From a virus, in the IMG/VR virus record IMGVR_UViG_3300006735_000252, positions 1-24,091 of that record: a DNA stretch of 24,091 bases. One strand, written 5' to 3'. A model generated the notes under the pieces. It saw nothing but the letters and a program-made list of their open reading frames with translations. It did not search any database and was not told the origin of the DNA. The translations under genes and the position numbers were made by a program. How positions within the stretch are numbered: position 1 is the stretch's first letter; every line of letters starts with the position of its first letter. Shown here one piece after another: positions 1,396-14,348 of the stretch.

Positions 1396-1794
1396 TTATA
1401 TTGTTTTTATTATTTCGTGAGAAGATCTTTTATCGACCTGCCAACCTAATTTTTCATGTGTATCCATTAATGATTTTGTTCTACCGATACTAAAAATATA
1501 TGTAATACCTAGTTTTTTACAATCTTTTTCAACTCCATTAATTAACATTTCAATTGCTTCTTTTCTATCTTTTTCCCTATAATCAGGGTTTGAAACTATC
1601 CATTCTAACAAAGCTCCAGTAGAATTTGTTAAATACAAAAACCCAGAAACTATAGGTGTTCCGTTTTTTTCAACCATATATCCACTTTCGCCATTATCTG
1701 GAAGCATTTCTTTTGGTAAAACTGGCCATTTCCACCACTTCCACCAACTAGCAATAGTTTCGTAATCATTTTTAGTTAAATAACGAATTTTCAT
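1396..1794 (-). CDS. GNAT-fold acetyltransferase-like protein (second copy of cassette)
   Basis: A 132-residue protein with a GNAT-like layout: an N-terminal helix containing a Trp cluster (W17, W18, W20, W21, W23), the motif LPDNG at 31-35, strands around 48-56 ending in YLTNS, then IVSNPDY at 66-72 followed by a basic turn and a long helix (about 78-95). EKLGW at 114-118 is typical of the C-terminal part of GNATs. It is a paralogue of the protein encoded at 2363-2845, sharing WW, LPxNG, EKxG, YLTNS, the SxPxY turn, DR and EKL in the same order. The turn where acetyl-CoA pyrophosphate normally binds (Q/R-x-x-G-x-G/A) reads REKDRK, without the usual glycine. Its ATG overlaps the oxygenase stop by four bases (ATGA). 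Substrate is unknown. The GNAT fold is moderately well supported; catalytic activity is not shown. Confidence 0.8.
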   Translation of the reverse strand: MKIRYLTKNDYETIASWWKWWKWPVLPKEMLPDNGESGYMVEKNGTPIVSGFLYLTNSTGALLEWIVSNPDYREKDRKEAIEMLINGVEKDCKKLGITYIFSIGRTKSLMDTHEKLGWQVDKRSSHEIIKTI

Positions 1795-2366
1795 TGCTTA
1801 ATTTTATAAAACATAACAAACACTTGTCTACCTTTTTTCCAAGATTTATTTGGGTATTTACTATGAAAATAATGCGCGGGATATGATATTGCTCTGTTTT
1901 CTTCATAACCTATGATGCTGTCAATAGTCCACATGTCTAAATTTTCAGCTTCTTTAACTATCATTCTATCAAACTCCTCATTAGTAGTTTGTTTTGGCAA
2001 TGATTTACCATAAACTTTGTGACGCCATAAAGCCGTGCCGTGTAGCTCATTTATTTCTCTTGGAGACATGTACAATACTAAAGCTCTATCTGGTTGTTCG
2101 CCTTGTATGTTTAAATCACTGTGTATTCTCCAGTTGGTATCAACAACATCGTTTGATATTCTAAAAAATCCTAATATATTTTCTAGCTTATTACCTTCTA
2201 TTTCTTCTAGTTTTCGTAATACATAGCTGTTAAAATCATTACTAGATTCTTGTACCCAAAAAGATTTTCCAGGAGTTTTATGCTCAACATATTCGTCATT
2301 GTTTAATTTTTCAGTTATTCCTTTGAATAAATCTTTTTCTAAAAAATCATCAATAAAATATATCAT
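1791..2366 (-). CDS. Putative 2-oxoglutarate/Fe(II)-dependent oxygenase
   Basis: A 191-residue protein with the signature of the 2OG-Fe(II) oxygenase superfamily (double-stranded beta-helix). The HxD pair is H82 and D84 in RIHSDLN. A distal metal-binding histidine is likely H168 (H165 is the alternative) in PAHYFHSKYP. R180, in GRQVFVMFY on the last strand, is positioned to bind the 2-oxoglutarate carboxylate. The length fits a minimal single-domain member such as the prolyl-4-hydroxylase-like phage enzymes. The start overlaps the upstream gene stop by ATGA, and its own stop overlaps the next start the same way, so the three cassette genes are probably translated as a unit. The substrate cannot be read from sequence: a virion protein side chain, a host protein and a nucleic acid are all possible. 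Enzyme class is fairly secure from the motif order and spacing. Confidence 0.8.
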   Translation of the reverse strand: MIYFIDDFLEKDLFKGITEKLNNDEYVEHKTPGKSFWVQESSNDFNSYVLRKLEEIEGNKLENILGFFRISNDVVDTNWRIHSDLNIQGEQPDRALVLYMSPREINELHGTALWRHKVYGKSLPKQTTNEEFDRMIVKEAENLDMWTIDSIIGYEENRAISYPAHYFHSKYPNKSWKKGRQVFVMFYKIKQ

Positions 2367-2845
2367 GACTCAAAAAGAGATAACCAGTTAGCCTTACCTT
2401 CTTTTTGTTTTTTAACTACGTTTTTGTAGGCTTTGTGATGGGTATATATTAAACTATACTTATCTTCTAGCACGTCATGATCTAACTTTTCACATCGTTT
2501 AATAACGCTATCATAGGTTGTCATGGCCCATATTATTCTACACCCTAACTCTACAGCTAATTCAGAGCAAGCCTCTATTAGCATTGTTATAATTTCAAAT
2601 CTATCTCTACCTTTGTAGTTTGGGTCTGATACTAAAAAATCGATATAACCCATATCTGAGTTTGTTAGATAAACAAAGGCCGCGGCCATCATTCTACCGT
2701 CTTTTTCTATTGCAAGTCCCATTTGACCGTTTTCAGGTAAAAGCTCTTGACTTGGTACTAGCATGTGGTCATATGATTCCCACCATTTTACTAGAGTTTC
2801 TGCATCTTCAACCCAAACAGGTCGAATATTATATTTTTCTTTCAT
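2363..2845 (-). CDS. GNAT-fold acetyltransferase-like protein (first copy of cassette)
   Basis: A 160-residue protein. W21 and W22 lie in an N-terminal helix, LPENG at 36-40, a beta meander through 43-62 ending in YLTNS, then strand YIDFLVSDP (67-75) with the turn NYKGRDR and a long helix (83-99), and a further strand at 103-108. This order is that of GNAT N-acyltransferases. The pyrophosphate-binding turn is degenerate compared with the classical Q/R-x-x-G-x-G/A. It is a paralogue of the 132-residue protein at 1396-1794, with about 25 extra C-terminal residues that are Lys-rich and end in WLSLFES. I recall proteins with this WW/LPxNG/YLTNS pattern next to structural genes in marine phages, but this was not checked. 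It is the first gene after the tail block, preceded by an A-rich leader (AAATTAAATAAA then ATG). Confidence 0.8.
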   Translation of the reverse strand: MKEKYNIRPVWVEDAETLVKWWESYDHMLVPSQELLPENGQMGLAIEKDGRMMAAAFVYLTNSDMGYIDFLVSDPNYKGRDRFEIITMLIEACSELAVELGCRIIWAMTTYDSVIKRCEKLDHDVLEDKYSLIYTHHKAYKNVVKKQKEGKANWLSLFES

Positions 2846-2889: not shown

Positions 2890-3240
2890 TTATTTACTAC
2901 TAGCATTTATTTCTGAACCAACAGAAAATAACTCTATATAATTAGTGGAACTATTTTCAAAAGTAATATCAGCATAATAACCTTTTAGGCTAGAGTTGTT
3001 TACTTCAATTCTTTTTGCAAAAGACAGAAACATACCGTTTAAGCCTAGCGGAAACATTGTGTCAATAACACCTTTATCTTTGTCTACTATTATATAACCC
3101 GGCTTAACATCTAGTATAACACCAATACTAACAGGTTCTGATGTAATTCCACCAATTAAAATATTAGAAGCATAAGCGGTGTCTCCGATTTGTAAAGAGC
3201 AATTTGTAGCATTATTAAATGTTATTTTTGTTTGCGCCAT
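2890..3240 (-). CDS. Small tail-associated structural protein candidate
   Basis: A 116-residue, mostly beta-predicted protein with no signal peptide or membrane segment. Residues 1-30 (ITFNNATNCSLQIGDTAY) and a central VILDVKPGYIIVD strand pair suggest a small beta-barrel. The C-terminal part has the motif LKGYYADITFENSS and ends in a VGSEI segment and SSK. From memory, similar short proteins with a GYYAEVTFEN-like motif occur beside large tail genes in uncultured marine phages, but no function is known to me. It starts 10 bases after the stop of the 416-residue tail gene, with leader TTAAATAAAACAAC before ATG, so it belongs to the same transcript. A tail or fibre accessory role is inferred from context. 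Confidence 0.75.
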   Translation of the reverse strand: MAQTKITFNNATNCSLQIGDTAYASNILIGGITSEPVSIGVILDVKPGYIIVDKDKGVIDTMFPLGLNGMFLSFAKRIEVNNSSLKGYYADITFENSSTNYIELFSVGSEINASSK

Positions 3241-3250
3241 GTTGTTTTAT

Positions 3251-4501
3251 TTAAGAAGCTGTACCAAGCTCTATTATTTTTTCTAAATCTAAGTATATAG
3301 TTGTATTTGTAGATGGATAACTATTTATATTTATAATGCCCGAAAGATTTACTTGCTCGTGACTTCCTAAAAATCTAAGAACAGTACCCTTTTTCAAAGT
3401 TTGCGTTAAAGTAACTACCATAGCTCCATTGTTACCACTTCCATCCGCGTCTGCGGTAACGGAAGTTACTGTATTTGTAGAAGAATTATCAACATCTTGA
3501 CCTGAGTAGGTAACACCAGCTCCACCCGCAATACCTCTAGTCCTACCTAATCTAACGGTTGTTGATGGTGTACCATCTCCATCTGAATCATCCCTAAGCG
3601 TTGAAGTTAAAGCTGTAAACGTTTTTGTTAAAGAGTTAAAATCTAAAAGACAGCCAGTTGAAGCGTTTATATAACTTGTACCATAAGCTCTAAATGTCAT
3701 TGTTAGGCCCTCGTCAAAACCAACATTACCATTAAAGGTAATAGTTTTTGAACCTGTATTGATTGACAATACTCTAATAACCCCAGCGTTACTTCCATCA
3801 TTTAACTCTGGCGTTGTAGTATCTTTATAAAACTTTAACTCCATGCCAGCTACTATACCTGTTACATCAGCAACCTTAACAACAAGTGTATCTTGCCCAT
3901 TTCCCTGTGGATTACTTAAAACATCTTTCTCTACATCAACATACCACATCGAATCATTAATTGTTAGGCCCGCGTCAATTATAAAACCATGACTTTTTGC
4001 ATTTGTAGTAGTATTTACAACATCCCAATTAAAATTAACAACATTAGTTGATGTTACAGCGCCAGTAGAGGTAGATGTTGGCAAGGTAGCGTAATGACCG
4101 GCATTTGCAGCTAGCGTACCAGGTGTAAATGTTACAGTGGCATTGGCAGCAGCTTTTGTAATGTTTTTAGTTATAATATTTGAATTTGAATCTAATACCG
4201 TGGTACCGTTTACTGTTATAAGCTTTATAACATAATCACCACCACCAGAAGGAAAGTTAATTCGATTTGAATAGGTATTACCATTCATTACTACTTTCAG
4301 TGAATTAGAAGAATCGTTATAACCCGGCTCAAAACCTCTATCGTTAAAATCATAGTACAACGTGTGTGTTGAAGAGCTACTAGGATTTTGAAGTATTATT
4401 ATTTGAAACTCCGCGCCTATACTACCTTGAACAATAAAATTTCTTATTGTTTGCGCAGCTGGCATATCGCTAGTATCTATATTTAAACTATTTATTTGCA
4501 T
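3251..4501 (-). CDS. Beta-rich tail/appendage protein
   Basis: A 416-residue protein rich in S, T, N, G and alternating beta-strand patterns, with very few helices, as in phage tail spikes, fibres and decoration proteins. Several segments look like successive small beta domains: an N-terminal one at about 20-115, a middle one around the GxDTLVVKVADVTGIVAGM stretch, and a C-terminal one in which VVTLTQTLKKGTVL precedes a final LSGIININSYP...IYLDLEKII strand set. The middle motif (V-x-V-A-D-V-T-G-I-x-x-G-M) resembles repeated strand-turn modules of phage tail proteins. DDSDGDGTP near residue 300 is Asp-rich and could hold calcium. It lies 10 bases after the giant tail gene. I do not recognise a named family. 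A distal tail or receptor-contact role is inferred from composition and position. Confidence 0.75.
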   Translation of the reverse strand: MQINSLNIDTSDMPAAQTIRNFIVQGSIGAEFQIIILQNPSSSSTHTLYYDFNDRGFEPGYNDSSNSLKVVMNGNTYSNRINFPSGGGDYVIKLITVNGTTVLDSNSNIITKNITKAAANATVTFTPGTLAANAGHYATLPTSTSTGAVTSTNVVNFNWDVVNTTTNAKSHGFIIDAGLTINDSMWYVDVEKDVLSNPQGNGQDTLVVKVADVTGIVAGMELKFYKDTTTPELNDGSNAGVIRVLSINTGSKTITFNGNVGFDEGLTMTFRAYGTSYINASTGCLLDFNSLTKTFTALTSTLRDDSDGDGTPSTTVRLGRTRGIAGGAGVTYSGQDVDNSSTNTVTSVTADADGSGNNGAMVVTLTQTLKKGTVLRFLGSHEQVNLSGIININSYPSTNTTIYLDLEKIIELGTAS

Positions 4502-4511
4502 GTTAATTTAT

Positions 4512-7500
4512 TTAATAAGTTGTGCTAGTAGGCGCGGGAGAAACACTATCAGAAGACACTGATCCACTAGATCCAGAGCTAAAACTAAAAGCAGTTGCAC
4601 TTGTGAAACTTATGCTTGTAGCATTATCAATAACACCAATACCCTGAACGTCAAATCTACTAGTGTCTAAGGCTTGTTGAGTATTATCTCCTTGTATGTA
4701 GTTAAACCATTTACCTTCTTTTTTAATAAACTCAACTATACTACCTGAATCTAAATCGGTTTTTATTTCTGTACATTTCCAACCAGATACATCTTTTCCA
4801 CTAGACCAAGCTATAGCGTTGTTTATCGTGATATTACCTTCGGTTAAAGGTTTAGCAACGTAGGTTTGGCTACCTTCATAGTTAAGAGTGTTAAAAACCT
4901 TAACAGTAGAAGGGTCTTGATTAGAAACAAATTGTACTTTTGAACCATACTGATTGTCGTAAAAATTATTGTAATTATTAGCTTCTTCGGCTTTGTGTTT
5001 TATTTGAAATTCTCCTGATTCATATTCTGTAGCGCCATTTACTTTTGGCACATAGTGTTGCCATAAATTACCATCTTTAAATGTAAAATATTTTTTAGAC
5101 AAACTAACACCACTTTCTGGTACGAAACTTTTAAAACTACTCCAACCGTTAACAGCTTCGTTAAAAGTAATGGTTTTGTCAGAAATTCCAGCGTCTACAA
5201 AAACTTTAACCATCGAGATGTTATCTATGAAACCCTTTATAACACTTCCATTGTCACCAGCTACGATTACAAAAGAGCTTGTTAAGTCAGAATCAAGGTT
5301 TAAACCAGTAGAACTATAATCAATACTGTTTATAGTGCCTTGACCAGGTGTAAAATCTTGTTGGCCTATAGTAACTATTTGTTCAAAATTAATAGGTTGG
5401 CCAGCTGTAGCACCACCTATATTTTCAATTCTAAAGCCAAAACCTTCGCTATTGTAATAGTATATGTTTATTTCGCCTTGTGTGATTTCGTGCGTAAAAC
5501 TTATTTTGTATTGATCGTTTTTATTTACAGGTTTACTAATCTGTTGATTAATATTTATAAACTGTGTTTCACCAGTTTCATATATTGGGCAATCATCAAA
5601 AACAAAATAATTGTTTTCACTATCTAATGTAATATAATCATTTGTAACACTATCAAAATTACTTATGTTCCAAGCACCAATAGTACCACCTAGTAGAGTA
5701 TTTTGCACTGGTATAAAAGAAATATTACTAATAGCAAATTCTTGAGCCGCGGTTACTCCAACGCCTACGTCGTGGAAAAGCTGTATTTTATTTCCCGCGT
5801 TTGAAGCAAACCAACCAATAGAAGCCAAGTTGTCTACTAATTCCGCCGTGCTATACACATTAGAGCTTTCTGTAACTGGCGTTCCAAGATTTTCCCTGTA
5901 TACTTTCCAATTTGCAGTTGTTGGCGTTTGTTTTAAATCAAAAACTAAAAGATAATTTCCAGTGTCTGTAATATTGTTAAAAGCAAAACCTCTAAATATA
6001 CTGCTTTCTTCAACGGCAATTACACCACCAACAGTACCTGAAAAATTATTTGTAATTGGATTAGGGCTTACTGTAAAACTAAATTTCCACTCTGTTTCAT
6101 ATATGTTTTCTGGAAAAGGAATAACTTGCTCCCATTTGTTATATAGCATTATTCCGTTTTGATCCGCTGGCACTTGCCAAGCCAAACTATTATTTTTATA
6201 GTAAAGAACATTGTTAGAAAGACTATGCACAGCGTTATATGTTGATTGTTGGTTTTCTTCCCAATCAGCAACCACGCCTGTAGTAGGTAAATCATCTAAA
6301 TGCTTGCAATGTATTTTTGTAATTCTTATACCGTTTTCACAACCTACAACTCTAACAGCCAAACTATTAGCAAGATAGTTTGTTGGATTTAAAGCGAAAA
6401 AACTATTACTAGCAAATTTAAACAAACCTCTTAACACTGTTTTTCCATCTCCAGACCCAAGACCACTGCCACCATACTCAGTTCTCACTGTTTGGACCAT
6501 TTGAAGATGTGAGTTAACGTTGTCGCCCGAGTATTTACCAACACCAAACTCAGAAATATCTTCCCCATCATCAAAGTCAGGGCCAGATGGCGCTACATTA
6601 AGGATTCTGACAGTACCATCTAAGCCACCGTTTCCAGAGTTAGGATTATAAGTGTCATCAAATTCAATATCAACTAAATACCATTGATCAATAACCCAAG
6701 GCTCTATAATCAAACCGTGATCAACAGCTGTTTGAGAGGTGTTTGCATCAGATACTATTTCTATATAGTCGTTTGCTATGCTTTCTAAATGAGAAGAGTA
6801 TACCGCGCCATCGCTACCTCTATCATAAAGGCCAAGTGTTGAACCAGCACTACCAACTGTACCACTGTAAGAATCATTACTTGTATAATCGCCAGTGTCC
6901 CAAAGTGTAAGGTTGTTTTGAGCGTCTGTACTACCATCGTGAGAAAAAGTAAAACCTTGTGGCACAACATAATTGACAGTATTTCCAATAGAATCTAAAC
7001 CTTGAGTAGGTACAGCGGCTCTATTATCTCCATAAGAAGTTTCAGCACCTACTACCGTAAAAGAAGTACCTACCGCATTTGCTGAAAGAGTCCAAGTTTG
7101 TGACGGTAAGCTAAAGCGATTGTGTTGAATTTCTCTCCAAGCTGGTATAGTTACAGCTGGAACAGGTGCCACACCAGTAACATCGATAGTTGTTGATGTT
7201 GTTGCCGGTATATTAGCTTGTACAACGCTAAAGCCTTTTTTAATTCTAACGTCTAAAATTTTAAATAAAGGTCTTTTTAATTTATTCCAGTTACTTCCAA
7301 CGTCATCATACCAATTACCACTAGGTGATCCTGATGTTTTCCCGTAAAATCTAAGTTTTAAAGAGTCTACTACTTTTGTTATTGGATCTTCATCAAAGCC
7401 AAAACCTGGGCTTGGTCCGTTTTTTAAATAATCAGCGTAAGATTGACCATTAAGTTTGCCTAGTTTAATACTAAAACTAATTTTATACTCTCTTGTGTCC

Positions 7501-10500
7501 TGAGTGCCGTTTGAGTGAGCATACCCAACTGGGCCTAGAACGTGCCATCTATCATAGTTTGCATCATCAATCGTCCAGTTTTGCTGAGTGGAGGTTCCCG
7601 TGTTTGAAGAATCGTACTTAGTACTTGAAAATTCTACATTAGCGTAGTTTTGCCAACTGTATGCATCCACAAAGTTTATTGGCTGAGTGTATCCGTAGAA
7701 GGTCTCACCTTGATCACCATCAGCGCCACCAAAAGGTGTTGAGTGAAAACAATTGTAAGGTGTTACGTCACCACTATTGCTAGCCCTCGTAGTACCATCG
7801 TTGTCCCAGTCAGCTATTATATCTCCATTTACAAGTTGTGACGCTCTTGGTATAAACGCTCCTTCTGGATTTGCGCTGGCCATACCCACACCGTAATAAG
7901 CTCCAGTGTAAGCCCTATCAATTATTTCTCCACCACCAGCGGTTAAATGATCATTAGTACCAACAATATTAGTTCCATCGTATAGCTCTAGTTTAGGTCT
8001 TATGTAGTTTCTTCCAAAACGAGCTTTACCTTGGTTTGTGGTGCTAGTACTCCAACCATCTCCTTTTGGAGTAGCGTAAAGCAAGAGCTTTACTTGTACG
8101 TGTATTTCGTCACCAGCAAAGCAACTTCCATGTGTTATATTGTCTGTGTTTTCGTTTGCGCTATAACCCTGTGCTGTTTGTACTGCGGTACCAATGCTAG
8201 AGCTACTAAGATAGCTATCGTTAACACCTCCTCTCGCGGCATATGAATGGCCAAGTTGATGTACTCCGCCAAGACCTATATTAGTCCACTCAATATACCC
8301 ACCAGTATTTATTCGATCCCACACTATTCCTGATTGGTTGTTTTTCCACTGCGCTTTTCTTGATACATTGCCGGTAAGAGTGGAGTTTGGATTATTTGGA
8401 ATTGGGTAGTTAAAGTTAGCAACGTTGTTTGTGCTGCCAGGCTCATTTTTTGTTATATGCGCGCTGATATTAGCGTCTGGACCTCCACCTATTAAGAAAC
8501 CACTATTGTCTAATGTAGGGTAGTAATTTAAATCATTTTTTGCTATTGATGGTGTAATAGATTCGTAGTTTCCATTGGTGGTACTTAATGGATCTTCAGC
8601 GTGAGATCCAAATATTGCCCCAGGAACACTACCACCGCTATCGTCTAAAGCATCAGTCATAAGTTGACCAGCACCACCTCCCCATTGAGAAGATGCAGAG
8701 GCTACACCCGTGGTTACATAAGTTTGTGTTACAGCAGGGATTAAAGATCCAAGCGGTATTTCAGCGTGATTAGTAATGTAAATACTTGTATCTAAATTAG
8801 GATTTATAAAATCATCCCAGTAAAACGGATTTGATGCAACCCCCGCTGTACCAAGCTCCAGTATGTCATGTATTTCATATGGATATTGAAAATTTGTACC
8901 AGTTGGAACTGAGTTTAAAACCCTGTTAGTAGTGTCTGCTATTTCTATTGGATCGCCACCAGCTTCTAAATAAGCATCCTGCAAGAGATTTTGGCTAAAG
9001 CTATTATTTGATAATGTTAGGTTATAATCTTCTTTATAACTATCATAAGTACCTATTAAAGAATTATACTCTCTTAGGTTGTCTCTAAACCAGTCGTGCA
9101 TGCCAGTTTTTGAAATAGGAGTCAGCCCATCCTTAGAAAGTCTAAGTACAGCACCTCTTTGTTTGTCTGTAAAATAAGTTCTAAAAGATTCTCTAGCAAA
9201 AGATTCTGGATTTTTAGATATTCCATAATCACCTGAGAAAGGATTTGCGTCACCTAATACTTTGTCGCTAGCAACTAACTGTGGGTTAGCATCTGCGTTA
9301 AATATAGTGTCCTTATTGGAAACTATACTTATAACTTTGTCTTCGCAAAATGCTATTAAGCTTATTCTTCTTTGAAATAATTTCTGAATACTACCAAACG
9401 TGGGGTTTAAATCTTTAGTTGTCTTTTCAGCCATTATAAACTGATTAAGATCATTAACGCCAGAGTTAGAATTATATATACCAGAATATATTAAGCTATT
9501 TGCTCTATGTTCTTCTTTGTATATTTCTTGTGTTGTAGTGGATGCTTTTACACCATTAGCTATAAATATTTGGTTGTAATCATCTCTAATTCTATTAGAT
9601 TCAATACCATTACCAAAAGAAAAACAATTATACCAGGAAAGACCAGCTATTAAGTTTTCACCAATATTTTCTTTAAAATCAAATTCGGTTATAACCTTAA
9701 TCGCTTGTCCGGTAGCAGGTACGTCATAGTTGCTTATTGCCTCTGCAACAGTATAACTTCCATCTTTTCTAATAAACTTAAACGACATGTCAGAATAATC
9801 TATTGCTGTTTCAACTCCATTCTGAACGTCATATTTAGGGAAACCTGGCGATAAAGTTGCTGTAGAACCATTCCAAGATTCTAATATACACGATGTTGTA
9901 ATAGTTGAGTTTAAAATTTCAACTCTACACCCTGTTGGTGCAAATAGTTCACTTGTTGTCTCGCTTAGTTTAACTGGTAGATTACCACTAGCCTCATAAT
10001 ATATATCTAGATCTACCTCTTGTTTTTTAGGATCAAGTTCCCATATAGCTGGAAACTTACTCAAGTCAGATAATAAAACATCTTTAACTGGATCTAAAAA
10101 CTCAATATCACAAAAATTATTACCAACAACATCCGCAGACATTATATTAGCAGAGGCTTCTAGTGGATTGAAGCCAGATGCTGAAGCTACCGGATTTTTA
10201 TCTAATTCAATTATATAGCATATTCTTCTGTTATTTGCTTTACCAAAATTATGAATAGCCGTTTTAAAATCATCCTCTTCTGTGCCGGAGCTAGAATAAG
10301 TGCCGCTATCATTAACCTTTTTTAGATATTCTAAAGCTGTTTGCTCTACGCTTTTGTATTCTAAAGCGTGACTTGACAAGTGTTTGTACGCGCCATCTAC
10401 ATATCTATTAAAAGGTTTTCTCCAAGAAGTGTGATTGTATAGTTTTTTTACAGATACTTTTTTAATAGTATAAACCTCAGTATCGGTTGTATCACCAACC

Positions 10501-13500
10501 TTGTTAAACCTAAACTGAGCACCTGGATGTAAGTTTCTTATAAAATCCCTTATTTTATTATCAGTATCGCCATTTTGATTGTATGTTGGATCCCATTGTT
10601 TTTCGTGTAACTCTCTGTGCTTTAAATCATAACCAACTCCAATTCCAGGTCCTGGTGCTAAAAATCTATAGTTATTATTTACATCGTGATTACCTTCCAT
10701 CATTATATGACGGTGCTTCGTGCCACCACTACCAAATTTTGAATTTTTTGTTTCACCAGTAAAAACACCTCCGCCCCATATACCCTGCAAATTAGCAGCC
10801 CAAGAGTTTTGGCCAAACAATGTTGGGGATGTATCTTTAAATGTTCCGCTGTGTAAATTTCTTCCAGGTGCAAAAAACGATAAGTGCATAAAATGTCTAC
10901 CAACCTCACCGTCGTTAGAATAAGTTTTAGTATCATTACCAACACCGTGACCACCTTTAGTGTTAATACCACTAAACCATCTTCTAGCACCGTTCGCGTG
11001 AATATCAGTTGTTGTAACTATGCCCTCTAATCCGTTTATGTGATTACCATCTACATCAGTAGGCGTATTTCTTGATACTTTTTGTAGTGGACCAACCCAA
11101 CCATCAACTTTTTTATTTCTCCAATCATTTTGCGCTGGCACCAGTGGTGATGTAGATATAAAATCATCATTCCACCAAAGGGAATTGCTTTTTAATTTCT
11201 TTTTTAAACCAGATTGGTTTTTAAAATCAGTTATCCAAGTTTTCATTGGTGGATAGCTCCAACTTGATTCTTCTGCAGAGCCAGCTTGACCAGCTGTACA
11301 ACCAGACCAAGTTATACAAGAATACTTAGCATAGTTACTAGCCTCACTTTGTCCAGCAGCCATGTACATAGAATCTATAAAAAATTGAGAACCTCCAAAA
11401 GCGGTATAAATACCACCCCAAGCTGCCTCGTAGTCCGTAACTTTTAAAGCCGAATTGTTAGCATCAACATCTCCCTCCGTGTTATTAGCACTATCATGTA
11501 TACTATCTGAAGCATCCGTGGTGTGATCAGCAGTAAAACCATCGTAATTTGTAAGTCCATAATTAGTCACGTTGTTAATATTATAAGTAGCAGAACTACC
11601 TATATCATCTTGCCAGTAGTAACCAAATCTTTTTGATGTAACTTGAAATTGATCTAATGTATTAACAGGATTACCGCTTTGAACTAAATCTGTAATTTGG
11701 TTTTTAGATATTTTAACGAAGAATTTACCAGAGAAATTTTGATCATCTTTAAGTTCTTTTCTTTCTATTTGAACAATTAAATCTGCGTGTAATAATGACT
11801 GTGCCGTAGAAGAATCACCGTTAACGTGTGCTATATCAGCGTCTATTTTAGTTATTTTAGTCGCTAGTTTTAAATCATAATTAGCACCACCAAACTTACC
11901 GCTTGTTATTTTGTATTTTTTTGATGATACTCCTTTTCCACTCGCATCTAATCTTCTCCAAGAAATATATAAATTATTAGTTCTTATTGGACCGTCATTT
12001 ATATCCGTGGCCTCTGTTTCTAAAGGCACGCCTCCAAAAAGCTTAATATTACCAGAGTTTTCAAAGCTTTTCCAACCAACGTGCGACAAAGATAAGGTAT
12101 CAACTTCTTTATCCATTCTTTTTGCCTCTTTATCAAAAACCTCTATTGTTAACGCGTCAGTAGCATTGGCATCACTTGTTTGACCCACCTGACCATAATT
12201 GACTAATTGATACTTACAAGCTTCAGGTGCGTTATTTTGAATATCAATAATTTTAAATTTATTTTCAAAAGCAATTTGCTCTTCACCAGTACCAATTTTT
12301 TTCTTTAATATTATATAATCATCTTCTGAAATTTTGTTTCTATCAGCAGATGGAAATGAAATCCATATGTTACCTTTTTCACTATCTAAATCGTAAGTGC
12401 TTTTAGTAACCCAAGCTCTATCCATTATTAAGTTATAATATTGGTTTGAAGTTTCTTTTATAAAAAACTTTAATGAATCAACCCACTCTGGAAAATTATT
12501 AGCAACACTTGTGTTTAATTGAAGGCTTCTACTAGCGTTTCTAATGTTATCGCTTTGCCAAGGTATGTTAACAGCGCCATCTGTAGAAGTAAAAACAGGT
12601 GTTTCTCTACCAAACTTATCACTATAAACAACACCTACTTGGTAATTTCTTTGTGATTTAATAGATCTCAAGCCTTGTGATTCAAAATTGTTTATCTTAG
12701 CATTTCTATCGTTGTAGCTAATAGATATTTCCACATCCTCACCTAAATCATAGTTTTGTACGTAGTTACCGTAAACAACCCTATTGCCGGTAACTTCTTG
12801 GGCTAAAGCTTTTTTAGGAACATTATCCCAAGGTCTTAGTAGTTGGTTTTCAGGTAGTGCGGCATAAATGTTTTCTGTAGTTACAATATACTTACCACCC
12901 CCAGCGCTACCTATTGCCTTGAAAGTACCATTTGGATATGTGGCATTTATAGTACTTGGATTACCTAAACCTATATCCTCGCCTAATCCTTCGTGACTAC
13001 TTTGCTCGTGCCAATCTTTATGAGATCTTTTTATTGTACTAATAGAGTATATAACAGGTGATTCCTCCTGTTTGTATAATATTTCTATTTCATCAACGTT
13101 TTCTGGCGTATGCACTGTAACAAACTCTGTTAACTCAATAGAGTGAATAGAGTTTACCATAGCTTTGTTGTGCGCATCTTCTACATCATAAGCATTATCT
13201 TTGTTGTAAAAAATGTTTGTAACATTGGAAACACTAGCGTCTTTTGGGTATTTAGCATTAAAGACTGGGTGTGTAAAAGGTGAGAAAGGTGAAACTTCAC
13301 CATCTTTATATTTATACCTATAAGCAAATCTAGGTAATTTTGTTTCAAAAATATTTGGAATATTTATATCACTATTGATAGATTCAGAGTGATTTATTTT
13401 TATCGATGGAGCGCTTAAAGGTTTAGGTTTTATAACGGTAATGTGACGTTCTTCGATATCTATTGTTTGATTAACATATGACGTAGTCCCATCAGGCAAT

Positions 13501-14348
13501 GTTACGGCTTTACAGCCAAAAATAATATCACCCTTTTCCCAAGGATCACTATTATCCAAAGATGGCCCAGCTCCTTGTAAGGCATAAAAATAATTTCCAG
13601 GTTGTCCAGCGGCGGGATCTGGATCGCTCCAAACTTCAATATTTTTTAACCCTAAATACTCGTTATCTCTATAATGTTTAACCGTGTGGTATTGACTTGC
13701 AACACCTGGGTTTACCGGTGGAACGCCTAGCACAGCTTCTAATTGCTTCTCCTCATACCAAACTCGATCACCTTGAGAAACAGCATTTGTAACGGGGCTA
13801 AAGTTTCCAAGTTGTGTAATAAGATTTATAGTCAACCCATTAAAACTACCTTTTTCAAAACTTAATTGCGTGTGTTGGTTTCCACTTATATCTGTGCCCG
13901 CTTTGCAGGTGTCTATGTTTATTTTTCTTGGATTATTAACGTTATCTGTCCAAAGTAATAAATTATCTATTATGTTTATACCAGTTATTATTTTGTTTGG
14001 AAACTTTAAAACGGCTTTAGGAGTGCCAACATGTTTATCCACAAAGACATACGCTTTCTTATCTATATCAATGTCATACTCTATTATACAATCTGCTTCG
14101 TAACTTGAAACAAACCAATATAGTTTATTTGTTTTATCATCTGCAATACTACCCACACAGGTAAAGCCATCTTCTAAATAAACTAAACCATGGTTTCCTA
14201 ATATGTTTTTAACAACCCCAACGTTAGAACCTTCTGACGTGGATACCTCTATGTTTAAAGCATCTCTATACTCACCACTAGGTACTAATCTTTCGTCAAG
14301 ATCTTTATTTATCCTTCCTTTAAGAAAATTATTTTTAATCTCCGGCAT
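4512..14348 (-). CDS. Giant tail nozzle/muzzle-like protein with C-terminal beta-sandwich modules
   Basis: A 3278-residue protein from one uninterrupted frame, about 41% of the window. The N-terminus (FLKGRINKDLDERLV, then GEYRDALN) and the following repeated strands (VGSIADDKTNKLYWFV, ITGINIIDNLLLWTD) have the look of a beta-propeller platform, as in the T7 gp12 nozzle and crAss-like muzzle proteins. Further core segments are FAYRYKYKDGEVSPFSPF (about 341), YQVGVVYSDKFGRETPVF (569) and, most typical of the family as I remember it, 1560-1770 with WYNCFSFGNG, DKVISIVSNKD, YGISKNPESFA and RGAVLRLSKDGLTPIS. Residues about 900-1330 look like an insertion. From about 2285 onward, strands such as YKISF followed by a closing IDNISMVKV recall carbohydrate-binding jelly rolls. 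The last 33 residues are Ser/Thr-rich. It follows the adaptor gene by three bases. The nozzle role is inferred; a structural protein is near certain. Confidence 0.85.
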   Translation of the reverse strand: MPEIKNNFLKGRINKDLDERLVPSGEYRDALNIEVSTSEGSNVGVVKNILGNHGLVYLEDGFTCVGSIADDKTNKLYWFVSSYEADCIIEYDIDIDKKAYVFVDKHVGTPKAVLKFPNKIITGINIIDNLLLWTDNVNNPRKINIDTCKAGTDISGNQHTQLSFEKGSFNGLTINLITQLGNFSPVTNAVSQGDRVWYEEKQLEAVLGVPPVNPGVASQYHTVKHYRDNEYLGLKNIEVWSDPDPAAGQPGNYFYALQGAGPSLDNSDPWEKGDIIFGCKAVTLPDGTTSYVNQTIDIEERHITVIKPKPLSAPSIKINHSESINSDINIPNIFETKLPRFAYRYKYKDGEVSPFSPFTHPVFNAKYPKDASVSNVTNIFYNKDNAYDVEDAHNKAMVNSIHSIELTEFVTVHTPENVDEIEILYKQEESPVIYSISTIKRSHKDWHEQSSHEGLGEDIGLGNPSTINATYPNGTFKAIGSAGGGKYIVTTENIYAALPENQLLRPWDNVPKKALAQEVTGNRVVYGNYVQNYDLGEDVEISISYNDRNAKINNFESQGLRSIKSQRNYQVGVVYSDKFGRETPVFTSTDGAVNIPWQSDNIRNASRSLQLNTSVANNFPEWVDSLKFFIKETSNQYYNLIMDRAWVTKSTYDLDSEKGNIWISFPSADRNKISEDDYIILKKKIGTGEEQIAFENKFKIIDIQNNAPEACKYQLVNYGQVGQTSDANATDALTIEVFDKEAKRMDKEVDTLSLSHVGWKSFENSGNIKLFGGVPLETEATDINDGPIRTNNLYISWRRLDASGKGVSSKKYKITSGKFGGANYDLKLATKITKIDADIAHVNGDSSTAQSLLHADLIVQIERKELKDDQNFSGKFFVKISKNQITDLVQSGNPVNTLDQFQVTSKRFGYYWQDDIGSSATYNINNVTNYGLTNYDGFTADHTTDASDSIHDSANNTEGDVDANNSALKVTDYEAAWGGIYTAFGGSQFFIDSMYMAAGQSEASNYAKYSCITWSGCTAGQAGSAEESSWSYPPMKTWITDFKNQSGLKKKLKSNSLWWNDDFISTSPLVPAQNDWRNKKVDGWVGPLQKVSRNTPTDVDGNHINGLEGIVTTTDIHANGARRWFSGINTKGGHGVGNDTKTYSNDGEVGRHFMHLSFFAPGRNLHSGTFKDTSPTLFGQNSWAANLQGIWGGGVFTGETKNSKFGSGGTKHRHIMMEGNHDVNNNYRFLAPGPGIGVGYDLKHRELHEKQWDPTYNQNGDTDNKIRDFIRNLHPGAQFRFNKVGDTTDTEVYTIKKVSVKKLYNHTSWRKPFNRYVDGAYKHLSSHALEYKSVEQTALEYLKKVNDSGTYSSSGTEEDDFKTAIHNFGKANNRRICYIIELDKNPVASASGFNPLEASANIMSADVVGNNFCDIEFLDPVKDVLLSDLSKFPAIWELDPKKQEVDLDIYYEASGNLPVKLSETTSELFAPTGCRVEILNSTITTSCILESWNGSTATLSPGFPKYDVQNGVETAIDYSDMSFKFIRKDGSYTVAEAISNYDVPATGQAIKVITEFDFKENIGENLIAGLSWYNCFSFGNGIESNRIRDDYNQIFIANGVKASTTTQEIYKEEHRANSLIYSGIYNSNSGVNDLNQFIMAEKTTKDLNPTFGSIQKLFQRRISLIAFCEDKVISIVSNKDTIFNADANPQLVASDKVLGDANPFSGDYGISKNPESFARESFRTYFTDKQRGAVLRLSKDGLTPISKTGMHDWFRDNLREYNSLIGTYDSYKEDYNLTLSNNSFSQNLLQDAYLEAGGDPIEIADTTNRVLNSVPTGTNFQYPYEIHDILELGTAGVASNPFYWDDFINPNLDTSIYITNHAEIPLGSLIPAVTQTYVTTGVASASSQWGGGAGQLMTDALDDSGGSVPGAIFGSHAEDPLSTTNGNYESITPSIAKNDLNYYPTLDNSGFLIGGGPDANISAHITKNEPGSTNNVANFNYPIPNNPNSTLTGNVSRKAQWKNNQSGIVWDRINTGGYIEWTNIGLGGVHQLGHSYAARGGVNDSYLSSSSIGTAVQTAQGYSANENTDNITHGSCFAGDEIHVQVKLLLYATPKGDGWSTSTTNQGKARFGRNYIRPKLELYDGTNIVGTNDHLTAGGGEIIDRAYTGAYYGVGMASANPEGAFIPRASQLVNGDIIADWDNDGTTRASNSGDVTPYNCFHSTPFGGADGDQGETFYGYTQPINFVDAYSWQNYANVEFSSTKYDSSNTGTSTQQNWTIDDANYDRWHVLGPVGYAHSNGTQDTREYKISFSIKLGKLNGQSYADYLKNGPSPGFGFDEDPITKVVDSLKLRFYGKTSGSPSGNWYDDVGSNWNKLKRPLFKILDVRIKKGFSVVQANIPATTSTTIDVTGVAPVPAVTIPAWREIQHNRFSLPSQTWTLSANAVGTSFTVVGAETSYGDNRAAVPTQGLDSIGNTVNYVVPQGFTFSHDGSTDAQNNLTLWDTGDYTSNDSYSGTVGSAGSTLGLYDRGSDGAVYSSHLESIANDYIEIVSDANTSQTAVDHGLIIEPWVIDQWYLVDIEFDDTYNPNSGNGGLDGTVRILNVAPSGPDFDDGEDISEFGVGKYSGDNVNSHLQMVQTVRTEYGGSGLGSGDGKTVLRGLFKFASNSFFALNPTNYLANSLAVRVVGCENGIRITKIHCKHLDDLPTTGVVADWEENQQSTYNAVHSLSNNVLYYKNNSLAWQVPADQNGIMLYNKWEQVIPFPENIYETEWKFSFTVSPNPITNNFSGTVGGVIAVEESSIFRGFAFNNITDTGNYLLVFDLKQTPTTANWKVYRENLGTPVTESSNVYSTAELVDNLASIGWFASNAGNKIQLFHDVGVGVTAAQEFAISNISFIPVQNTLLGGTIGAWNISNFDSVTNDYITLDSENNYFVFDDCPIYETGETQFININQQISKPVNKNDQYKISFTHEITQGEINIYYYNSEGFGFRIENIGGATAGQPINFEQIVTIGQQDFTPGQGTINSIDYSSTGLNLDSDLTSSFVIVAGDNGSVIKGFIDNISMVKVFVDAGISDKTITFNEAVNGWSSFKSFVPESGVSLSKKYFTFKDGNLWQHYVPKVNGATEYESGEFQIKHKAEEANNYNNFYDNQYGSKVQFVSNQDPSTVKVFNTLNYEGSQTYVAKPLTEGNITINNAIAWSSGKDVSGWKCTEIKTDLDSGSIVEFIKKEGKWFNYIQGDNTQQALDTSRFDVQGIGVIDNATSISFTSATAFSFSSGSSGSVSSDSVSPAPTSTTY

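Follow-up and report, generated by a model that had tools for sequence, protein, structure and literature searches.

Phage T7 encodes an internal virion protein of 138 aa, the product of gene 13, between tail gene 12 and the ejection genes 14-16. In P22, gene 14 lies between the needle gene 26 and the ejection genes 7, 20 and 16, and a gp14-type product is a virion component by mass spectrometry in phage L (PMC8022706). Roseophage SIO1 carries an annotated acetyltransferase gene between those for a tail protein and internal virion proteins, and this GNAT has been proposed as the counterpart of T7 gp13 (PMC6775973). Among the papers searched, this cobavirus paper was the only one that turned up for a GNAT located where P22 gp14 or T7 gp13 is encoded, and a review on ejection proteins made no mention of GNATs or acetyltransferases. 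Another phage GNAT-type protein is Rac of the phiKMV-like phages, which leads to cleavage of the alpha subunit of host RNA polymerase; its acetyl-CoA pocket residues are present, and mutating the predicted pocket abolished the effect (PMC7552054).

Gene order at the GNAT-oxygenase-GNAT locus

The locus analyzed here resides on a 24,091-base virus fragment from IMG/VR (the window), on which every gene is encoded on the minus strand. The source is a marine flavophage-like podovirus, placed via the relatives of its portal protein near Elemovirus, Pervagoviridae, Pachyviridae and Maribacter phage Panino. Gene order is P22-like, with terL, portal, scaffold, major capsid and adaptor-type proteins followed by a large tail protein of 3278 aa (4512-14348, minus strand), which in relatives delimits the GNAT slot on its upstream side. 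Two further tail-type proteins of 416 aa (3251-4501, minus) and 116 aa (2890-3240, minus) come next, the sequence of the latter corresponding to the C-terminus of the protein that directly precedes GNAT_S in most relatives. Then follow the three genes of interest, all with intact reading frames: GNAT_L (160 aa, 2363-2845, minus), OXY (191 aa, 1791-2366, minus) and GNAT_S (132 aa, 1396-1794, minus). An Ala/Gln-rich, ejection-type protein of 464 aa (3-1394, minus), whose reading frame is open at the window end, completes the series. GNAT_L is joined to OXY, and OXY to GNAT_S, by 4-nt ATGA stop/start overlaps on the minus strand (2363-2366 and 1791-1794). The initial annotation, which had described ATGA-joined genes between tail genes and a putative ejection protein, is thus borne out in these points, and the late expression that it deduced from the overlaps is plausible from gene position.

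Two further sequence elements were observed. The 44-nt gap before GNAT_L contains a palindrome-like element (2858-2881) with AAGTGT / ACACTT arms, the 15-nt arms being 80% complementary; it is a possible control element. Within the gene for the 464-aa ejection-type protein, a short 21-nt repeat (933-999) gives rise to seven-residue repeats of the NAYxGLENxF type.

The position of GNAT_S invites comparison with the systems described above. The T7 gene 13 product (phrog_308, PF11090) has the same gene order, i.e., tail, a protein of about 135 aa and ejection proteins, and is similar in size. It stems from the unrelated Autographiviridae, however, and does not match GNAT_S significantly at the sequence level. 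Profile comparison with hhalign gave a colinear but marginal similarity (p=0.03 over 112 columns), and one out of 60 column shuffles scored as well. P22 gp14 (DUF2824, phrog_651) likewise has a GNAT_S-like position between the genes for the tail needle and the ejection proteins, but homology with GNAT_S was rejected, with an hhalign p of 0.41 and 23 of 60 shuffles performing equally well. The GNAT of SIO1 and the cobaviruses again has a tail appendage protein on one side and internal virion proteins on the other. These podoviruses belong to another family and their GNAT falls into phrog_1249, while the flavophage GNATs fall into phrog_17252; phrog_1249 is matched by the SIO1 acetyltransferase (2e-36) and also by GNAT_L (3.4e-5). 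In the Pervagoviridae phi40:1 and phi38:1, the GNAT_S slot holds a distant homologue, gp098, with 30% identity in the portion that could be matched; the phi40:1 copy has been recorded in virions by MS/MS. A search for OXY in both genomes gave no match. The protein encoded next after the GNAT in phi38:1, gp099 (L086:25157-25759), weakly resembles the T7 gp14 ejection protein family along its entire length (E=0.0059).

Folds and conserved residues of the three proteins

In agreement with the proposal that two paralogous GNATs surround an oxygenase, GNAT_S and GNAT_L share 35% identity over 119 aa (E=5e-25), and both match phrog_17252 (3.5e-35 and 7.6e-18). While no Pfam match was obtained for GNAT_S itself, its AlphaFold2 model (pLDDT 96) displays a clear GNAT fold, with 317 PDB matches in Foldseek at E<=0.001, the best among the matches listed being GNATs or acetyltransferases. 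For GNAT_L, a divergent paralogue with a C-terminal extension, the assignment is based on Pfam Acetyltransf_1, for which the protein lies above the cut-off (23.1 bits vs 20.7).

The canonical acetyl-CoA loop of GNATs reads R/Q-x-x-G-x-G/A. In the GNAT_S family, R-x-x-D-R stands in place of R-x-x-G-x-G. Among 79 sequences of the family none has the canonical loop: position 76, where the first glycine is expected, is D in 72 and G in none, and the next loop position is R in 77. The loop of GNAT_L, K-G-R-D-R-F, is of the same kind. Judging by these residues, acetyltransferase catalysis by the GNAT_S family is doubtful, and GNAT_S may therefore be a non-catalytic virion protein. Catalysis nevertheless remains conceivable because GNAT_L passes the Pfam acetyltransferase model.

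In the phylogenetic analysis, GNAT_L clustered with a GNAT of contig L114 (support 0.968), namely the first in a tandem pair. The first GNAT of L114 lies upstream of GNAT_S in the same slot, and there is no OXY between the two or elsewhere in the contig. It follows that the divergent second GNAT copy is older than the arrival of OXY or independent of it. When viral contigs were searched with GNAT_L as the single query, no matches were obtained; a two-sequence alignment (A8) recovered GNAT_S-type genes for the most part, and an alignment of nine GNATs proved too divergent to be used for scanning contigs.

2OG-Fe(II) oxygenases are characterized by an HxD...H iron triad and an arginine that binds 2OG. 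OXY has both, in agreement with the initial annotation, and 52-53 of 54 relatives share the residues concerned (H82-x-D84, H168 and R180). The AlphaFold2 model (pLDDT 80) adopts the double-stranded beta-helix fold, so that structure prediction recovered the folds expected for both GNAT_S and OXY. Foldseek returned 230 PDB matches at E<=0.001 for OXY; the matches listed are 2OG enzymes, some of them putative, and include GriE, HygX, PHD2, OGFOD1 and a prolyl-4-hydroxylase. OXY has the double-stranded beta-helix, the HxD...H triad and the arginine in common with PHD2, P4H, GriE and HygX. These enzymes were detected by the fold search, whereas PDB sequence searches with OXY or an OXY profile found no oxygenase. 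By sequence, no curated family reached the cut-off for OXY; DUF6445 was matched weakly (E=0.018), and phrog_1644, labelled as minor coat protein, with 2.9e-10. Taken together, motif and model support OXY as a predicted 2OG-Fe(II) oxygenase.

Genomic context of GNAT_S and OXY in related phages

We retrieved 80 IMG/VR loci with GNAT_S, 54-72% identical. In all 80, the gene follows large tail proteins. It is directly preceded by a tail-type protein in 77 loci, by OXY in two and by a second GNAT in one. The ejection-type protein family is encoded directly 3' of GNAT_S in 69 loci, separated by -1 to 20 nt, and was not recognised next to GNAT_S in the remaining 11; a hydrophobic N-terminus is present in 15 of 20 relatives of the ejection-type protein. 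In most of 41 additional GNAT loci, whose contigs overlap partly with the former set, the gene is again preceded by these tail proteins. More distant relatives of 154-158 aa (L313-L324) are carried by a further group of phages, on unrelated contigs of up to 153 kb; in the two that were checked (L319 and L322), the gene adjoins tail or fibre genes. Among isolates, the slot holds a GNAT in an elemovirus, Maribacter phage Panino, MW202828, phi38:1, phi18:3 and Gundel. The data support the occupation of a T7 gp13-type slot, i.e., one between tail and ejection proteins, by GNAT_S.

In the phi40:1 record, the GNAT homologue gp098 is listed as structural from experimental MS/MS along with gp097, gp099, gp100 and gp101. 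For phi18:3, the GNAT (gp116) is not among the MS/MS-annotated proteins, while its neighbours are. In two Pachyviridae, phi19:3 and Gundel, the slot is likewise occupied by the GNAT gene, which here runs on the strand opposite to its structural neighbours. The phi19:3 gene (gp122, L326:4037-4408) is one of a few genes clustered on that strand together with a tRNA-Cys; the Gundel homologue is gp71 (L087:9381-9791). The inverted genes and the lack of an MS/MS annotation for phi18:3 gp116 imply that neither packaging nor co-transcription is general.

The distribution of OXY differs from that of GNAT_S. In 77 of 80 OXY loci, the gene lies within 2.5 kb upstream of terL. Only the remaining three (L001-L003) have OXY directly before GNAT_S, the two frames being 0-8 nt apart without overlap; ATGA overlaps are a feature of the window alone and are missing from these three closest OXY relatives. 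None of the three is accompanied by both GNATs, and a search for the same trio beside tail genes found the exact order in no other record, so the three genes do not form a conserved cassette. Twenty contigs carry both genes apart, with the GNAT 17.3-20.1 kb downstream of OXY on the same strand (three of these distances were counted across the contig ends, the contig being taken as circular). No OXY was present in 29 of 34 contigs chosen for their GNAT, several of them 55-65 kb long, bearing in mind that absence cannot be proven from fragments. In elemoviruses and in three further genomes (G038, G052 and G058), OXY is located on the strand opposite to the virion genes. The OXYs adjacent to GNAT_S and that of the window form one clade (support 0.83), which fits a single relocation. 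Contigs L091 and L093 belong to the GNAT clade of the window, yet contain no OXY. OXY is a separate accessory gene whose position varies among relatives, and the GNAT_S slot is independent of it. The initial annotation had named single homologues at unrelated positions as what would speak against its cluster: this is what we found for OXY, while GNAT_S keeps a fixed position.

In an example of the common arrangement (L004:6441-7004), OXY follows the gene for a 187-aa protein with a 4-nt overlap, upstream of terL. By eye this protein is reminiscent of GroES-type co-chaperonins; no Pfam match was obtained. In L045 (4293-4865), OXY is seemingly split into two frames, and an in-frame TGA is present in that of G052 (C1:52536-53102). 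This may point to decay of the oxygenase in some genomes, unless sequencing errors are responsible.

Possible roles of the three proteins

The initial annotation had suggested a joint role, in which one and the same protein of the virion, of receptor binding or of the host would be hydroxylated by OXY and acylated by at least one of the GNATs. The shared strand and 4-nt overlaps in the window, the adjacency of OXY and GNAT_S retained in L001-L003 and the models, which support both folds, are in line with this proposal. It fails nonetheless because the homologues occur singly: most GNAT-chosen contigs are without OXY, a separation of 17-20 kb is seen where other contigs have both genes, and the trio is found nowhere else. 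The acylation part is additionally weakened by the loss of the glycine loop from GNAT_S. We thus consider the joint role very improbable. Alternatively, GNAT_S, GNAT_L or both could be active acetyltransferases that act on host proteins during infection, as is reported for Rac, the slot being a mere gene location. Such an activity would agree with the Pfam match of GNAT_L, with the inversion of the GNAT gene relative to its neighbours in some Pachyviridae and with the precedent of Rac and its predicted pocket. The altered loop of the GNAT_S family and the virion record for the phi40:1 homologue argue against it, and since the rac gene precedes the structural genes, a different slot, Rac was rejected as a model for GNAT_S. 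We regard host acetylation as unlikely.

A third possibility concerns the oxygenase by itself, which could act on a virion protein, e.g., fibre or tail, without the GNATs and be tied to the late block generally. In most relatives OXY is the first gene of the late block, on the strand of terL and immediately upstream of it, its matched PHROG carries the minor coat protein label, and protein hydroxylases are among the fold matches. On the other hand, the PHROG label does not stand for a function that has been tested, enzymes acting on small molecules head the list of fold matches, and the opposite-strand location of OXY in some genomes speaks against such a tie. This role is conceivable for OXY, albeit with the balance tilted against it.

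The explanation that we favour, and hold to be reasonably probable, is that no conserved cassette exists and that GNAT_S is a fixed protein of the virion block and ejection slot, GNAT_L a second copy and OXY a relocated accessory oxygenase. GNAT_S is a fixed virion-block gene across a broad group of flavobacterial podoviruses and most likely helps to build or load the internal (ejection) part of the virion, a role in assembly or ejection. It is probably packaged with that part, possibly without acetyltransferase activity. GNAT_L would represent an older, divergent second copy retained in the same slot. OXY, usually situated just upstream of terL, would have moved once into the slot in an ancestor of the window and its three relatives; its substrate is presumably independent of the GNATs. 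Given a fixed GNAT_S, a rare second copy and a wandering OXY, the trio is mostly the outcome of ordinary gene shuffling. The counterpoint is that the adjacency of OXY and GNAT_S has been retained in four divergent contigs, and this could reflect a link. A more far-reaching idea, to which we assign a low probability, is that a GNAT fold without acetyl-CoA loop was recruited as a packaged accessory to the podovirus ejection apparatus, occupying the same slot in flavophages, cobaviruses and T7-like phages even where the sequences are no longer recognisably related, and that the co-transcribed OXY in the lineage of the window now modifies part of this apparatus. The locus is best read as an already known kind, a podovirus virion GNAT, to which a second copy and an oxygenase insertion have been added.

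With these results, the tempting pathway reading of the trio is removed as unsupported. OXY instead is an example of accessory enzymes entering virion blocks without giving rise to a pathway. Phrog_17252, listed as function unknown, can be assigned a GNAT fold and a place in the virion ejection slot, and one homologue has been recorded in virions. If the T7 gp13 slot were filled by the same fold, a small unexplained virion protein of a model phage would gain a testable ancestry.
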